Assembly: GCA_003671055.1 (NCBI GenBank)
Contig: QWPV01000008.1
Span: 21,735 to 68,719 of the forward strand
DNA from: Planctomycetota bacterium
GTDB lineage: Bacteria > Planctomycetota > Phycisphaerae > Phycisphaerales > SM1A02
Reading direction: 5' to 3'
DNA length: 46,985 nucleotides
In this document: in pieces, positions 2,163 to 46,352 of the stretch
How the letters are laid out: every line of letters starts with the position of its first letter
Position numbering within the stretch: the stretch's first letter is position 1
Notes under the pieces: model-generated
Databases searched by the model: none
What the model was told of the DNA's origin: nothing
The model's input: only the letters and a program-made list of their open reading frames with translations
Made by a program: the position numbers and the translations under genes

Positions 2163-2897
2163 ATGCAACGCCCCATCCATCTCTTGCATGACTCGCGCAT
2201 GCTCGCACGCATGATCGGCGTAGAGGCACCCTGCTGCGACATGGTCGCGATGCCCACCTCGGGGAAAGCGGAGCCGTTCTGTGCGTGCACGCTCGCGAAC
2301 CCGCTCCGCGAGGACTTTCTCCTCGACCTCGACGCGCCGAGTGAACGATTCCTGTGCTACAGCGGATCCCTCAACGACGATCTCTTCGCCGACGAACCCA
2401 GCAACTGGATGCAGTTGGGACAGGCACAATTCGAGAAATTCCTCGACGACACCGCGCCAGCCCTCAAAGCAAACCAGCGGCGCCTGTGCCTTCGCCCGCA
2501 CCGGCGCCACGTGCTCGGCGACCTCCCAGGTTGCGTGAAGTTCCTCCGCGAGCGCGTTACCGCGAATCTAACGGGGCCATTCGAATTGTGCCTGTCCCCA
2601 ATTGAGATGCTCGCGCCGTCGATGCTTGAGCCACCGCAAGCTCTCTACGAGCACCTACAACGCATGTTTGCGCACCTCGGGCCTGCTTCTTCCTGCGTGC
2701 TGCTTGCCGATATCAAGGCGCCCACTGCGCTTGACGATGTGGAGCGGTGCCTGGAACTCCTCCCGCTGGGGACCGGCGTGCTCGACCGTGGAATCGTGCT
2801 TGCATTGCTCGAGGAGTTTGTGCCTGTTTCCACCCCGATTCTGTTGATTTCGGCTGCGGTTGAGCAGCAGTTGAACTGGTTCCGAACCCAGAATTAG
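2163..2897 (+). CDS. Conserved hypothetical protein carrying an internal repeat pair
   Basis: I do not recognise this 244-residue protein. It starts 3 bp after the queD stop and is likely co-transcribed. There is no signal peptide or membrane segment. Stretches such as LCLRPHRRHVLGDLPGCVKFLRER, split by FELCLSPIEML and SSCVLLADI, loosely recall the alternating strand/helix pattern of xylose-isomerase-like TIM barrels, but this is only an impression. The striking feature is a 20-bp inverted repeat inside the reading frame (2415-2434 and 2581-2601) matching the GTGCCTGTCCC family seen elsewhere in the window; it encodes QLGQAQF in one arm and ELCLSPIE in the other. The frame stays open across both. 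Confidence 0.8.
   Translation: MQRPIHLLHDSRMLARMIGVEAPCCDMVAMPTSGKAEPFCACTLANPLREDFLLDLDAPSERFLCYSGSLNDDLFADEPSNWMQLGQAQFEKFLDDTAPALKANQRRLCLRPHRRHVLGDLPGCVKFLRERVTANLTGPFELCLSPIEMLAPSMLEPPQALYEHLQRMFAHLGPASSCVLLADIKAPTALDDVERCLELLPLGTGVLDRGIVLALLEEFVPVSTPILLISAAVEQQLNWFRTQN
2415..2601. repeat. Intragenic inverted pair of the GTGCCTGTCCC repeat
   Basis: Left arm TTGGGACAGGCACAATTCGA (2415-2434) and right arm TCGAATTGTGCCTGTCCC at 2581-2598 followed by CAA. They are reverse complements over about 20 bp apart from one extra C in the right arm. The arms are 146 bp apart and both lie in the coding region of the gene downstream of queD. The same core occurs next to the RAYT transposase at 5841 and 5933 and in the clusters near 34.6 and 35.8 kb. 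Confidence 0.88.
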
Positions 2898-3662: not shown

Positions 3663-4307
3663 ATGGCTACCGACACCACCGCCTCCTCAATCACGAAGTC
3701 CGACAAGAAGCGTACCAAGGACACTACGAAAGCTGAGAAGGCCGCAACGAAAGCTGCGGCCGCTGCAGCAAACGGCGCAGCGAAGGCTGCGAAGAAAGCT
3801 GCCAAGTGTGCGGACAAGAAAGAATGTTGCGGCGAAAAGGCGTGCGATCAGAAAGCATGTGCTGACACGAGTGGGGACAAGTGCGGTGGCGCGCCCAAGT
3901 TCAAGCACGTCGCGAAGAAAAAAGAGTCGAGCGGTAAGGGCGCATCAGCCGCCGAGGTTGGCCAGCAGCTCGTAGCCTTCATCAACGCTGGAAAGAGCCA
4001 AGAAGCAGAAGCAACGCTCTATCACAAGAACATCGAAACCGTTGAGTGCGACGGCACTCGCGTAGAAACGATGAAGGGCGTGAAGGAAGTCGGCGCGTGG
4101 TGGCATTCGAATATGGACGTGCACTCGGTGATCGCTCGTGGCCCCTTCGTCTCGCAAACCGGATTTGCAGTGCACATGGCGATCAGCGTCACCCCCAAGG
4201 GCGGCGCACGCATGGACATGCACGAAGTGTGTTTCTATCGCGTTTCCAAGGGAAAAATCATTCGCGCAGAATTCCTCTCGCCTGTGCACGGCGTCGCGGG
4301 TTTCTGA
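3663..4307 (+). CDS. SnoaL-like (NTF2 fold) protein with Lys/Ala- and Cys-rich N-terminal region
   Basis: 214 residues in two parts. Residues 1-48 are Lys/Ala/Thr-rich and low in complexity, like the basic tails of histone-like proteins. Residues 49-74 hold six cysteines (49, 55, 56, 61, 66, 74) in KCADKKECCGEKACDQKAC and the segment after it, which suggests metal binding or disulfides. From about residue 96 a SnoaL/NTF2-like domain follows: AAEVGQQLVAFINAGKSQEA, then ALYHKN-like and VECDGTRVETMKGVKEVGAW, ending with KIIRAEFLSPVHG. SnoaL-like domains occur in polyketide cyclases and many stress or unknown proteins, so the reaction cannot be given. No signal peptide. Confidence 0.8.
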   Translation: MATDTTASSITKSDKKRTKDTTKAEKAATKAAAAAANGAAKAAKKAAKCADKKECCGEKACDQKACADTSGDKCGGAPKFKHVAKKKESSGKGASAAEVGQQLVAFINAGKSQEAEATLYHKNIETVECDGTRVETMKGVKEVGAWWHSNMDVHSVIARGPFVSQTGFAVHMAISVTPKGGARMDMHEVCFYRVSKGKIIRAEFLSPVHGVAGF

Positions 4308-4618
4308 GCGCAATCCTTCGTCTCTGCATCCCAAGTTGAAAGGCGATTTTGTACAGGCACATTCGGCGATGTGTGACAGGCGATATGTGACAGGCACATT
4401 CTTAGACGTCAAAATGATCACTCTGCCTCGGACCGCACTTCGATTTCACGACACAACCCCAGCACAATCACCGCTTGCATCCACGCAAGTCGCTCTGATA
4501 ATGGTCTTGCTACAGAATTCCTGGTTGTTCGACGCGGCTTCTCAATGTTCCATAATTGGAAAACCCGCGCAAGCCATCGCTCCGCGTTCCCGCCCTCCGA
4601 ATTGACCTGTGCGATGCG
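4308..4618. other. Intergenic stretch between SnoaL-like gene and RAYT
   Basis: 311 bp without a credible gene. Its left part holds degenerate copies of the dispersed repeat (4350-4402). The rest, 4403-4618, shows no gene, hairpin or promoter that I can support. Confidence 0.6.
4350..4402. repeat. Degenerate GGACAGGCAC-type repeats, 3' side of RAYT
   Basis: Three partial copies in the same orientation: TACAGGCACATTC (4352-4364), TGTGACAGGCGA (4372-4383) and TGTGACAGGCACATTC (4386-4401). They resemble the complement of the GTGCCTGTCCC core found on the other side of the transposase gene and elsewhere. They lie about 220 bp beyond the 3' end of the RAYT gene. Confidence 0.7.
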
Positions 4619-5779
4619 CTACACACTGCTCCACACGGGCAGCATCCGTTTGACCCCACGGCGTGTTGCTTCGAGCGCGATGGATTCTCTGCTTCCGTAA
4701 CAACTCCCTCTTGTCGAGTTGAGCAGGCTCCTGGCGCCGTCTTCGAGAAGAATCGGGAGCAGGGATGACGTGAGGCCCTCTCGCAACTCGCTCCACCATG
4801 TTGCGACAGAATGCGCCGCGAGCCGGACTACTTGCGAACCTCGCGACAATGACGCATGCACGCGTGCGATCGCGCTTCCTACCGCGTCGGGCTCCGAGTC
4901 TGGAATCCATCCTGCCTTATCGAGTCGCCGGCGACGGCCAGCTTGATCCACGCAATGAAGGTGCTGGAGCAGACTTCGCGTTGAGACAGGATTTCCATCG
5001 GTTGGCGTTGATCGAATTGTGTCGCCGGTGCTTTCCCCACTACACATTGTCTGGCAAGGAAACACTGGTTCCCAGCGAAGGTCGAGCAGCTGTTTGCGAA
5101 GATTGTCCGGCGCGGCAGCGCCGTCAAGACACGCACGCTTCACGCCATCGCAGAATCGCTGCCACTGGATTTGCGCTGATGTCCAAATGCTCGATGGAAT
5201 CGATGTAGCGGCACACGCATGAATCTCGTTGAGCTCTATGTAACCCGCGACATTCTCGAGCGCTCCTTGATCAAGGACTTTAGGAGACTTGAATCGACCT
5301 TCCCAAAAATGACCTGTGACCTTGTCCTCTCGATTCCACTTCTTCGCACATGGTTCCTTCAGGAGTTTGTGGAAGAAGCTAAGGCTTGAGAGGTCACGGC
5401 GTGCAGTGCGTACGCGCTCGGGGCTCTTCATGAAAATCGCAACTTCAAGTTTCAGTGCTGCTTGCGCGTCCGCAGCGGTGTCTTTCGAACGCTTGCGGTG
5501 ACTCGCGAGGAGCGTGACCTTTCGAAGCGCGATCTCGTGATCAGGCCATGCTGCGGCGACTTCAGGCCGCGTCCTCAGCAGCAGGTGAAGATGATTCTCC
5601 ATCACGCAGAACGCCAGCACATCGATCGCGCCATACTGCGCCAGAAACTCAAGTTGCTCGACGATCCACCCCCTGCGCCTAGGGTCGCTTAGGAGCGATT
5701 CTCTGCGTACACAGCGAGAAATGCAGTGGTAAACCCCCGAGTGCGCCTCATCCACGATGTCTGATCTTTTCCGGCCCAT
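4619..5779 (-). CDS. REP-associated tyrosine transposase (RAYT, IS200-like Y1 family)
   Basis: 386-residue single-strand DNA transposase of the Y1/HUH superfamily, of the type that acts on REP palindromes in other bacteria. The N-terminus GVYHCISRCVRRESLL, the HUH pair His63/His65 in CVMENHLHLLLR, the segment TGHFWEGRFKSPKVLD and the catalytic Tyr180 in AGYIELNEIHA match the family. Residues after about 200 form a long C-terminal extension without a recognised domain; many RAYTs are shorter. The gene stands alone, without terminal inverted repeats of a classic IS, but is bordered on both sides by the GTGCCTGTCCC repeats. The frame is intact, so it may be active. Confidence 0.92.
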   Translation of the reverse strand: MGRKRSDIVDEAHSGVYHCISRCVRRESLLSDPRRRGWIVEQLEFLAQYGAIDVLAFCVMENHLHLLLRTRPEVAAAWPDHEIALRKVTLLASHRKRSKDTAADAQAALKLEVAIFMKSPERVRTARRDLSSLSFFHKLLKEPCAKKWNREDKVTGHFWEGRFKSPKVLDQGALENVAGYIELNEIHACAATSIPSSIWTSAQIQWQRFCDGVKRACLDGAAAPDNLRKQLLDLRWEPVFPCQTMCSGESTGDTIRSTPTDGNPVSTRSLLQHLHCVDQAGRRRRLDKAGWIPDSEPDAVGSAIARVHASLSRGSQVVRLAAHSVATWWSELREGLTSSLLPILLEDGARSLLNSTRGSCYGSRESIALEATRRGVKRMLPVWSSV

Positions 5780-5832
5780 GCGAAGACGGTACAGGTGATA
5801 CGGAGCACCTCCCCGATTTCTCGCCTTTATTC

Positions 5833-5948
5833 CGAAGAGAATTGTGCCTGTCCCAAATTGGATTCAAATTGGATTCCAAATTGGATTCCAAGTTGGATTC
5901 CAAGTTGGATTTCAAATTGGTGTGCGAAGAGAATTGTGCCTGTCCCAA
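5833..5948. repeat. 24-bp direct repeats bracketing a 12-bp tandem array, 5' side of RAYT
   Basis: Two identical 24-bp copies (5833-5856 and 5925-5948), each containing GAATTGTGCCTGTCCCAA, bracket a short tandem array. The array (5855-5920) consists of about five and a half units of 11-12 bp, consensus AAATTGGATTCC, with AAG variants in the third and fourth full units. The block lies between the RAYT gene and the 3' end of the CPBP protease gene. The open frames crossing it on both strands (KLDSKLDSKLD or SNLESNLESNL) are by-products of the repeats. Confidence 0.9.
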
Positions 5949-5976
5949 GTTGAGAGGGGGACCCCAAATTAGGCGG

Positions 5977-7524
5977 TTAGCTGGTGATTGCGATGGACTG
6001 GATGAACGCACTTGCGTCTCGCGCGACCGGCGCTTGCATGATGACGAATCCGAGCGAGACCGTCACTGCGTTGTTGACGCTGTGTGCGACCATTGGCGCG
6101 ATCAGGCTGCCGCGCCATTCTCGGAAGATGCAGAACGATGTGGCGAGGCCCATCAACACTGGCGCGAAGAGGAGTCCTTGCGGATGGATGGCTGCGAAGA
6201 TTGCGCTCGAGATGAGTGCCGCGCACGCGAATGCTGCAAAGGCGCCGTAGCCGTTGAGTGACTCCCTCAAGTGGCGATAGAGCAATCCGCGGAACATCGT
6301 TTCTTCGATGATTGGTGCGACGACTGCCGCGAGGAAGAGGATTGCGAAGAACTCAAATGCGCCCGCAGATTGCAGCGCTTCTGCTGCGGGATGCGATGGC
6401 TGCGATCCGTCGCCGAAGAGCGCCGTCAAAATCAGGAAGCAAATCAGACCGACCGCGAGCAGTGGCAGCGCGCATGCGTAACAAAAGAATCCAGACACGA
6501 TTTCGATGCAGAATCCTCGGCCGCGATGCCATCCAGCTTCGCGCAGAAGCCAGCCCACACTGCGATTGCGCACGTTTGCCCAGCACAATGCAAAGAGGCT
6601 GAGGATGAAGACTCCGATGCCAATGAGAAGCGGAAGCGCTGAGCTTGTTTCGAGTGCGGGCGTCTCAGTGAGTGTCAGTCCGAGCGTCACGCCGATGGCG
6701 ATGTTGAGTCCCAAGAACACTGCCATCCAGACTGCAAATGTTTCGACAGCAATCTGCGCGAACTCCCCCTTCGCAACCGCTATCGCGCCCTCACGCAATC
6801 GGAAGTTGATCTTGCCGAGCATCACGAGAACGCAGAACACGAAAAGTCCGACGAATCCAACGCAACCGAAGAATCCGAACCATGCGACCAATGCGAGCAG
6901 CGCTGCAAGCATGTTGGTTTCGACAGGAGCTTCACGCGCGATGAACAATCCGTACCAACCGAGTCGCGACTTCAAAATTTCGAGCTCTGCTTCAGGCAAC
7001 TCTTCGTTCGCCTGTTCCGCCAGCAACACATTGCGTGCAGCGGCGATCGTCGAGATCGCGAGCTCATCCTGTTCCATGGATTCGACTTCATCGAGACCGT
7101 CGAGCCCTTCTTGCACATCCACCATGCGACCGATCACGAGAAGTCGTGAAACTTTCTGCGGCCACTTTCCGTTCTCGAGCGGTTCGAGTTGACTCTGGAA
7201 AATCGCTGCTCCGTCTTCTGGTGAAAAGAACGAAGCGGTGCCAACGGTCAATCGACCAGCGAGTTCATCTTGCATTGTGAGGAGCTGCGCGTCGGGTTCC
7301 GCAATCCCCTCTTCCACAATTGCGCCGGACGCGGGCGGCACAACGTCGTCCTCCGAGCGCACGCGCTGCAGCAGCGCAGAGACGATCGTGAGCACGCCAA
7401 TTGCGATCCACGCAAGCACAACTCGACTGCGAGAGCTCAACATCTCAAAGTTATCGGCAGTTGGAATCACCGGTAGCGGCGCGAGTGGCGAAGGCGACTG
7501 GGAATCCGGAGGTAGCGCGTCCAT
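5977..7524 (-). CDS. CPBP family intramembrane glutamic endopeptidase (CAAX protease-like)
   Basis: 515-residue multi-pass membrane protein. The C-terminal CPBP/ABI domain carries the active-site motifs EETMFRG (Glu407-Glu408, Arg412), FAAIH (His447) and HSVNN (His481, Asn484). About eight hydrophobic segments are visible, the first at VVLAWIAIGVLTIVSAL near residue 36 and the others from residue ~208 on. Between lies an acidic, probably soluble region (residues ~55-205). Bacterial members cleave within membranes and are linked to bacteriocin self-immunity or protein processing, but the substrate here cannot be inferred. The 3' end abuts the repeat block at 5833-5948. Confidence 0.9.
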   Translation of the reverse strand: MDALPPDSQSPSPLAPLPVIPTADNFEMLSSRSRVVLAWIAIGVLTIVSALLQRVRSEDDVVPPASGAIVEEGIAEPDAQLLTMQDELAGRLTVGTASFFSPEDGAAIFQSQLEPLENGKWPQKVSRLLVIGRMVDVQEGLDGLDEVESMEQDELAISTIAAARNVLLAEQANEELPEAELEILKSRLGWYGLFIAREAPVETNMLAALLALVAWFGFFGCVGFVGLFVFCVLVMLGKINFRLREGAIAVAKGEFAQIAVETFAVWMAVFLGLNIAIGVTLGLTLTETPALETSSALPLLIGIGVFILSLFALCWANVRNRSVGWLLREAGWHRGRGFCIEIVSGFFCYACALPLLAVGLICFLILTALFGDGSQPSHPAAEALQSAGAFEFFAILFLAAVVAPIIEETMFRGLLYRHLRESLNGYGAFAAFACAALISSAIFAAIHPQGLLFAPVLMGLATSFCIFREWRGSLIAPMVAHSVNNAVTVSLGFVIMQAPVARDASAFIQSIAITS

Positions 7525-7594
7525 GTTCAGAACGATACCCCGACTGCCGTGACGCAGACTTTCAACAGTCTCACGAAAGCATCAACTCTAAACC

Positions 7595-7622
7595 TTGACA
7601 GAATCACGCAGTTCGGTATCCT
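7595..7622 (+). promoter_or_regulatory. Candidate promoter of rplM-rpsI
   Basis: A perfect -35 box TTGACA (7595-7600), a 16-bp spacer and TATCCT (7617-7622) as -10. It lies about 110 bp before the rplM start, in the divergent gap with the CPBP gene, and points towards rplM. Confidence 0.5.
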
Positions 7623-7732
7623 TCTCGATCCTCCACACGCTCTGCGTGCGTTCTTTCGACTCTGCATGACACTCATGCCGAAGGTCGCTCAGGCGCGTGA
7701 ATTGGAGTGACTCAGCGCAATAGGATTTCGAT

Positions 7733-34596: not shown

Positions 34597-34765
34597 AGGA
34601 GGTCGGTGACAGCCAAAATGTGCCTGTCCCAAACTCATCCCAGGAGGTCGGTGGCAGCCAAGATGTGCCTGTCATCAAAATGTGACTGTCCCAAACTCAA
34701 GTTGTGCCTTGTCACAAACTCAGGTTCAAACTCAAGTTGTGCCTGTCCCAGACTCATCCCCCTTC
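34597..34765. repeat. Expanded GTGCCTGTCCC repeat cluster upstream of first PEP-CTERM gene
   Basis: A 45-bp unit starting AGGAGGTCGGTGACAGCC (34597-34641) is followed by a second, partly diverged unit (34642-34676) with GGTGGCAGCC. Both contain ATGTGCCTGTC. Then come shorter degenerate pieces: TGTGACTGTCCCAAACTCAA, GTTGTGCCTTGTCACAAACT, and GTTGTGCCTGTCCCAGACTC near 34737-34756. All core copies face the same way. It is the same core as near the RAYT gene, but the flanking sequence differs. Confidence 0.88.
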
Positions 34766-35676: not shown

Positions 35677-35714
35677 TCGACTCTCGTAAGAGATCGAAAA
35701 GCTCGCTCAATCCA

Positions 35715-35755
35715 GTCCCCCGTTGCCGAAAAGGCAACGGGGGACTTGTCATTTT
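35715..35755 (+). terminator. Rho-independent terminator after PEP-CTERM copy A
   Basis: Perfect 13-bp stem GTCCCCCGTTGCC (35715-35727), loop GAAAA, GGCAACGGGGGAC (35733-35745), then TTGTCATTTTGGG. The tail after the stem is the same as after copy B (36991-37003). Confidence 0.88.
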
Positions 35756-35765
35756 GGGCTCTTTC

Positions 35766-35923
35766 CGAAATGTGCCTGTCCCAACTTCGAAATGTGCCTG
35801 TCCCAACTTCGCCCCTGTCCCAACTTCGCCCCTGTCCCAACTTCGCCCCAACTTCAATTTTCCTAAATTTGTTTATTTTCCGAAATGTGCCTGTCCCAAC
35901 TTCGAATTTGCGTGTCCCAAATT
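35766..35923. repeat. Tandem array of GTGCCTGTCCC units between PEP-CTERM genes
   Basis: Units of 22 bp, each CGAAATGTGCCTGTCCCAAC plus TT, at 35766, 35788 and 35881; shortened 17-bp units CGCCCCTGTCCCAACTT at 35810 and 35827; an 11-bp remnant at 35844; and a diverged unit CGAATTTGCGTGTCCCAAAT from 35903. An AT-rich interruption (35855-35880) separates the two parts. It begins just after the terminator of copy A. Confidence 0.9.
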
Positions 35924-46322: not shown

Positions 46323-46352
46323 TGGACAGGCAAGCCAAGGCTTGCCTGTCCA
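46323..46352. repeat. Perfect GGACAGGCA palindrome (REP-like)
   Basis: TGGACAGGCAAGCC (46323-46336), loop AA, GGCTTGCCTGTCCA (46339-46352): perfect 14-bp arms. The outer part shares GGACAGGCA/TGCCTGTCC with the other repeats. It sits in the 151-bp gap between two minus-strand genes and has no T-run, so it is a REP-type element rather than an intrinsic terminator. Confidence 0.85.

Follow-up and report, generated by a model that had tools for sequence, protein, structure and literature searches.

The window analysed here, the whole stretch of 46,985 nucleotides from a planctomycete genome of 2.85 Mb, carries a gene for a Y1 HUH transposase with copies of a short repeat on both of its sides, and the repeat recurs at a distance from the gene. 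Is this repeat the DNA partner of the enzyme, and if so, what kind of system do the two form? An earlier note had proposed a planctomycete variant of the REP/RAYT system. The gene and its motifs are the following.

4619-5779, minus strand: Y1 HUH transposase gene, 386 aa, like TIRYTs and TnpA_Y1 subclass 2.3 (open reading frame call, Pfam, AlphaFold2 model and PDB match)
5585-5593, minus strand: codons of His63-Leu64-His65, the HUH motif (His63 and His65 invariant in 30 aligned proteins)
5240-5242, minus strand: codon of Tyr180 in YIELNE, catalytic by homology (invariant in 30 aligned proteins)

The transposase is intact, as the earlier note had it, with a Pfam Y1_Tnp match of 5.7e-8 and with His63, His65 and Tyr180 all invariant in the alignment of 30 proteins. 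The NCBIfam model REP_Tyr_transpos scored 39.9 bits, under its cut-off of 80, and the PHROGs search returned no family at E <= 0.01. The best PDB match of the AlphaFold2 model (pLDDT 85.6, pTM 0.88) was 4er8, the E. coli RAYT with its REP hairpin (Z 12.4, 2.6 Å over 154 residues), and IS200/IS605 enzymes ranked next at Z 8.6 and below. In the model, the HUH strand ends at residue 70 and the next core helix runs from residue 133, the two being separated by an insertion, about 60 residues long and helical; the C-terminal part is long and mostly helical. No domain was recognised in this C-terminal part, either by Pfam searches with two pieces of it, one of which gave a sub-cutoff EACC1 match (0.005), or by PDB comparison of a separate model (pLDDT 70.9, pTM 0.66), which had no match at E <= 0.001. 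A helix-turn-helix in this part was considered and found no support in the two Pfam pieces and the PDB comparison, although one may be present. The window genome has five transposase matches, the four other copies being 44-73% identical to the window protein, and another genome of the family, G013, has eight.

The repeat copies of the window are listed below; G150 is one of three congeners used for comparison.

2417-2427, minus strand: second repeat copy inside the open reading frame 2163-2897, inverted (gap-free against three congeners; flank score 6.0 bits)
2588-2598, plus strand: repeat copy inside the same open reading frame of 244 aa (gap-free against three congeners; flank score 16.0 bits)
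4350-4402, minus strand: downstream copies, degenerate and inverted relative to the upstream ones (4387-4397 with one mismatch; alignment with a second element)
5839-5861, plus strand: upstream repeat copy 1, GAATTGTGCCTGTCCCAAATTGG (from the sequence; flank score 19.2 bits)
5862-5920, plus strand: partial units in tandem, derived from the repeat's 3' half and resembling AAATTGGATTCC (from the sequence)
5931-5953, plus strand: upstream repeat copy 2 (from the sequence; flank score 14.3 bits)
34620-34749, plus strand: direct array (34620, 34682 with one mismatch, 34739), coreless in the matching stretch of G150
35772-35897, plus strand: direct array (35772, 35794, 35887), coreless in the matching stretch of G150
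46323-46352, no strand assigned: palindrome TGGACAGGCAAGCC-AA-GGCTTGCCTGTCCA, two cores head to head, like that of the C29 paralog and outside the linear family

The copies at 4350-4402 lie on the strand opposite to those at 5839-5953, so both sets point outward from the gene. The claim that the repeat lies on both sides of the gene held, with the amendment that the two sides face outward on opposite strands. Read along the gene, upstream copies have GGGACAGGCAC and downstream copies GTGCCTGTC; this holds for the C68 paralog as well as for the window gene, and the upstream core reads GGACAGGCA. The DNA shared by two diverged units (73% protein identity) extends from the upstream repeat as far as 66 bp beyond the stop codon. 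The core had also been reported at 2.4-2.6, 34.6, 35.8 and 46.3 kb; the first three places were borne out, the 2.4-2.6 kb copies being inside an open reading frame, but the 46.3 kb core is one half of a repeat of another, palindromic kind. Palindromic repeats of 36 and 38 nt, like the one of 30 nt at 46323-46352, flank the C29 paralog (L040 4516-4551 and 5987-6024). The TGGACAGGCAAGCC/GGCTTGCCTGTCCA palindrome, apparently two fused cores, was also seen at locus L015 and its single arms at L027 and L029, and a head-to-head palindrome of this kind may be an intermediate stage between the linear and the REP-like type of repeat. Immediately ahead of the array at 35.8 kb lies a G+C-rich inverted repeat, AGTCCCCCGTTGCC...GGCAACGGGGGACTT (about 35714-35747), which looks like a terminator and has an altered form in G150.

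At the genome scale, 72 exact GTGCCTGTCCC copies were found on 27 contigs against 0 for a reversed-pattern control, and with one mismatch allowed there were 153 matches against 20. The window alone has 12 matches with at most one mismatch, where 100 dinucleotide shuffles gave 0.54 on average and 3 at most. The shuffles and the reversed-pattern control rule out chance or base composition as the source of the repeat, and the repeat described in the earlier note is real. The consensus is GAAWT-GTGCCTGTCCC-AAATTGG; it was drawn from 92 GTGCCTGTC sites, located in the window and in 28 further genome stretches. A leave-one-out flank score for 85 sites ran from strong members through to probable chance core matches, ten of them below 0. 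Neighbouring copies within 200 bp of each other had the same orientation in 41 of 42 pairs in the genome stretches read; the one exception, an inverted pair, lies within the open reading frame 2163-2897.

The reading that we consider likely is that the locus is a TIRtron, that is, a Y1 HUH single-stranded DNA transposase bounded by outward-facing, linear, hairpin-free repeats which are scattered genome-wide, mostly in direct arrays. The transposase would recognise the linear core beside its own gene and elsewhere, and would cut one strand at or near the core through Tyr180. It would then move or copy the whole unit as well as short stretches of repeat, and tandem growth would yield the direct arrays.

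Arrays of the window genome were compared with the congeners G150, G151 and G152 at five loci, plus the in-gene pair. In G150 and G151, about 100 bp stand in the place of the window unit (about 4306-6035), and all three congeners have less than 100 bp where the C68 unit would be. No core was found in the stretch of G150 matching the 34.6 kb and 35.8 kb arrays, and none of the three congeners has the array near C68. Over about 4112-7694 of the window, G152 is 92-97% identical in blocks of 200 bases, with 79% in the repeat block, while its other blocks are 56-91% identical and G150 reaches 67% over part of the same stretch. The high identity suggests that there may have been an exchange between lineages around the transposase site. 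In G152 the transposase is missing, one repeat is kept and the break falls inside the core (GGGAC/AGGCAC, the stroke marking the break), and the half core left there points to a deletion in G152, not an insertion in the window genome. The scar thus suggests a deletion, a single event from which no mechanism follows. The loci compared gave no instance of a short copy that had moved, the array junctions being blurred by about 25% divergence from the congeners.

The in-gene copies, in an open reading frame whose neighbour we take to be a QueD-like gene, differ from the congeners by substitutions and not by insertion. The copy at 2588 has 21 of the 23 consensus positions, against 15, 15 and 14 in G152, G151 and G150, and the FELCLSP peptide encoded over it is kept in G150 and G152, G151 having F for the second L. 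Because two copies replace homologous codons gap-free and the copy at 2588 is nearer the consensus than the congeners are, the enzyme might belong to a Y1 HUH family that reads a linear sequence, not a hairpin, and is able to spread its repeat by overwriting near-matching DNA without insertion, a repeat-directed conversion, which we regard as unlikely.

The same comparisons bear on an explanation by an ordinary autonomous insertion sequence, in which the protein moves only its own unit while solo ends, left by deletion, are multiplied by replication slippage. Such an element would fit the several diverged units per genome, the presence and absence of units among congeners, the tandem partial units at 5862-5920 and the deletion scar in G152. 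However, the exact copies lie at many separate places (72 on 27 contigs), and the units, at 44-73% to the window protein, are diverged, unlike those of a recent burst, so that this explanation appears rather unlikely.

The TIRtron reading ties the core to the enzyme, and this link could be followed across a family set of 181 genomes, 25 with a match to the window protein at E <= 0.001 and 18 of them at E <= 1e-9 (strong matches). A genome was called enriched when the core count minus the reversed-pattern count was at least 25, a threshold picked after the counts were seen. RTGCCTGTCC was enriched in 12 of the 18 strong-match genomes but in 1 of the 163 others (G206, 78% complete). With RTGGGTGTCC admitted as a second core, the enriched genomes were 14 of 18 against 2 of 163 (Fisher p 1.3e-15), where the 163 include 7 genomes with weak matches only (E 1e-5 to 1e-3). 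The two enriched genomes without a strong match, G206 and G256 (87% complete, enriched for RTGGGTGTCC), are both under 90% complete. In the congeners G150, G151 and G152, which have no transposase match, RTGCCTGTCC occurs 8, 6 and 6 times (controls 3, 8 and 1) against 131 times (control 1) in the window genome, which goes against the refuting case named in the earlier note, a core equally frequent in relatives lacking a RAYT. In G118, a single tandem array, mostly of a 42-base period and without a transposase match (contig C62:20137-20609), accounts for 12 of the genome's 14 core matches and is probably unrelated.

The strong-match genomes unenriched for RTGCCTGTCC were G153, G193, G105, G197, G063 and G258. 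The transposase flanks of G063 and G258 carry GGACACCCA; G258 has 120 RTGGGTGTCC (control 2) and 4 RTGCCTGTCC (control 2), and G063 has 39 (control 3) and 7 (control 2), while the window genome has only 3 RTGGGTGTCC (control 8). In G179, where the flanks at one of two matches (L085) carry GGACACCCA, RTGGGTGTCC occurs 84 times (control 3) and RTGCCTGTCC 63 times (control 4). Four of the 18 (G153, G193, G105 and G197) are enriched for neither core despite a strong match; the flanks of G105 and G193 show other cores, and no core was seen in the flanks of G153 and G197 (one locus each). The enriched core is present in the transposase flanks of all 14 enriched genomes but G013 (at at least one match per genome). 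The flanks of G013 locus L045 carry GGACACGCA instead, and two other transposase matches of G013 have exact GTGCCTGTCCC copies no more than 400 bp away.

An alignment scan of 84,980 species genomes extended the comparison to named relatives, of which the best 80 of 524 related places were kept, so the sample leans towards near relatives of the query. These best 80 of 524 lie in Planctomycetota, Gammaproteobacteria, Verrucomicrobiota and Holophagae. A search with no preset motif for 8-mers present upstream with their reverse complement downstream placed GACACCCA at the top (21 of 70 of these loci), followed by ACACCCAC (12), GGACACCC (11), AGACACCC (10), GACAGGCA (9) and GGACAGGC (9); the same cores thus come first when no motif is given. 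The pattern RGACA[CG][CG]CA, which was derived from 8-mers of the very loci on which it was tested, points outward upstream in 50 of 74 (the wrong way in 1), outward downstream in 47 of 76 (the wrong way in 2), and outward on both sides in 35 of 70 with none reversed, again among the best 80 of 524. Neighbours within 200 bp share their orientation in 133 of 139 pairs at these 80 loci. The density of a locus's own core drops with distance from the gene, yet 39 own cores, against 1 match of the reversed control, were still counted at 1-3 kb, in flanks that reach to 3 kb (for the named Gammaproteobacteria, up to 3 kb only). Since the layout and related cores occur in three further groups, Gammaproteobacteria, Verrucomicrobiota and Holophagae, the system is not specific to planctomycetes, a possibility that the earlier note had raised.

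A quickly built tree of 100 transposases, of which 79 bear a core label, requires 19 label changes, compared with a mean of 41.6 (minimum 35) for shuffled labels and of 34.5 (minimum 29) for labels shuffled within class. Core type goes with position on the transposase tree, also inside a taxonomic class. For 21 of the 100 tree transposases RGACA[CG][CG]CA is absent within 450 bp, a contig end explaining some of them. Taken together, these results show a specific partnership of this enzyme lineage with the linear core.

They also weigh on the idea of the repeat as a host site (regulator, nucleoid or terminator) beside which the transposase merely inserts, to which we give little credence. It would suit the 44 of 86 core sites that lie outside called open reading frames of at least 120 aa in the stretches read (mechanical calls), and the few copies that congeners without the gene keep, not in every case above controls. 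However, a unit that had inserted into a direct array would have its two flanks pointing the same way, whereas the flanks face outward in 35 of 70 and are reversed in none (best 80 of 524), which argues against a transposase that inserted into pre-existing arrays. Moreover, core abundance tracks the transposase and its core type, and the agreement of core and transposase tree extends to comparisons inside a class. We infer that the repeat is spread by the protein rather than by a host process.

A classical REP/RAYT system with decayed palindromes, in which the protein would depend on a hairpin with a GTAG foot and the copies would be REP arms that have decayed, is largely refuted and in our view very improbable. 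The fold and the NCBIfam name are RAYT-like (the latter with its score under the cut-off), and the C29 paralog of the same genome is flanked by true palindromes of two cores. Yet none of 85 copies folded as single strands below z -2 (mononucleotide shuffles), with a mean MFE of -0.9, compared with -2.4 and 10.5% below z -2 for random 26-mers of the window, and with -4.8 to -10.2 for seven published REPs, 5 of which fell below z -2. When 60 bases of context were included, 7% of the copies were under this limit. The consensus is without a GTAG foot, and a scan for perfect hairpins tagged GT[AG]G detected none within 1 kb of the window gene and one case at the 80 named loci (best 80 of 524). The arrays are direct and not inverted, and a linear core recurring across phyla is not expected from the decay of palindromes. 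On the folding and the hairpin scan we reject a hairpin or REP reading of the repeat; the earlier note was right to call the copies mostly direct and non-palindromic, but the strict REP/RAYT assignment gives way to TIRYT/TIRtron as the closest named kind.

For the TIRtron reading, our best inference from the sequences is that the enzyme may both read and move the core. If the enzyme reads a linear core, it would be a Y1 enzyme working without a hairpin. The linear core RGACA[CG][CG]CA is a candidate partner for a common group of transposase-like proteins without a REP-like partner in a 2018 survey, and since related enzymes in several phyla share the layout and the cores, their repeat partners appear to have been overlooked by hairpin-based searches. 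The change of the core along the protein tree (GGACAGGCA, GGACACCCA, AGACACCCA) offers natural pairs for mapping the core-reading residues, and the partnership provides a simple annotation rule for unexplained short repeats in planctomycete and gammaproteobacterial genomes.

Among known systems, IS200/IS605 elements differ from the one described here in that its repeat is hairpin-free and the four other copies in its genome are 44-73% identical, not near-identical. For RAYT/REP, the passages of the two papers drawn on here (2010, PMC2817692; 2021, PMC8266576) describe a gene between two inverted repeats, a repeat abundance that follows the gene, co-divergence of repeat and protein and, in Gammaproteobacteria, GTAG-tagged hairpins cut at CT or CA. 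The present system resembles it in its HUH/Y1 fold (4er8, Z 12.4), its two inverted flanking repeats, an abundance that tracks the gene and co-divergence, but the window repeat is linear and unfolded, and its arrays are direct rather than inverted doublets.

TIRYTs, as set out in the parts of Di Nocera et al. (2013; PMC3733652) used here, are RAYT-like Y1 genes flanked by inverted repeats (TIRs) unrelated to GTAG REPs. Some TIRs share GGGGWSAS, and TIR families are moderately abundant in some genomes, many in dimers or clusters. The same parts report no obvious correlation between tyrosine transposase gene and repeat family and consider TIRYTs to be maybe less productive than RAYTs. The system described here likewise has a Y1 HUH gene, inverted non-GTAG flanking repeats and a repeat family scattered in the window genome. 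GGGGACAG and GGGGACAC fit GGGGWSAS, while most copies read TGGGACAG (7 of 8 positions) and the full GGGGACAG occurs at 13 of 92 sites. Unlike the TIRYTs of that account, its repeat abundance closely tracks gene and core, its copies form direct arrays, and several phyla share one core pattern.

Within the TnpA_Y1 classification, the portions of Quentin et al. (2018; PMC6006769) consulted here place 20 of 26 described TIRYTs in subclass 2.1 and the other 6 in 2.2 or 2.5. They give subclass 2.3 the signature NHYH, WE and YVDLNP, a median of 325 aa, an insertion of 55 aa between HUH and Y, the occurrence of several diverged copies in one genome and a prevalence in Chromatiales and Alteromonadales, and they report that automatic and manual searches found no REP-like sequences at subclasses 2.1 and 2.3. 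Open-licence papers since 2018 described no linear repeats at subclass 2.3 (by title, among the matches listed), literature string searches for the cores gave nothing relevant within the same scope, and the parts of the open-licence literature searched contained no biochemistry of subclass 2.3. As far as those portions define the subclass, the gammaproteobacterial relatives found here largely have its signature (WE in 57 of 57, YVDLNP in 54, NHYH in 21; median 324 against 325 aa; best 80 of 524), but linear repeats flank such genes here. The window protein, with NHLH, WE, YIELNE, 386 aa and a gap of 117 between H and Y (112 in 48 of the 57 relatives, best 80 of 524), is by the same measure a diverged relative of the subclass. 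Judged by its layout, the system is thus a TIRtron, and judged by its protein signature it is near TnpA_Y1 subclass 2.3.
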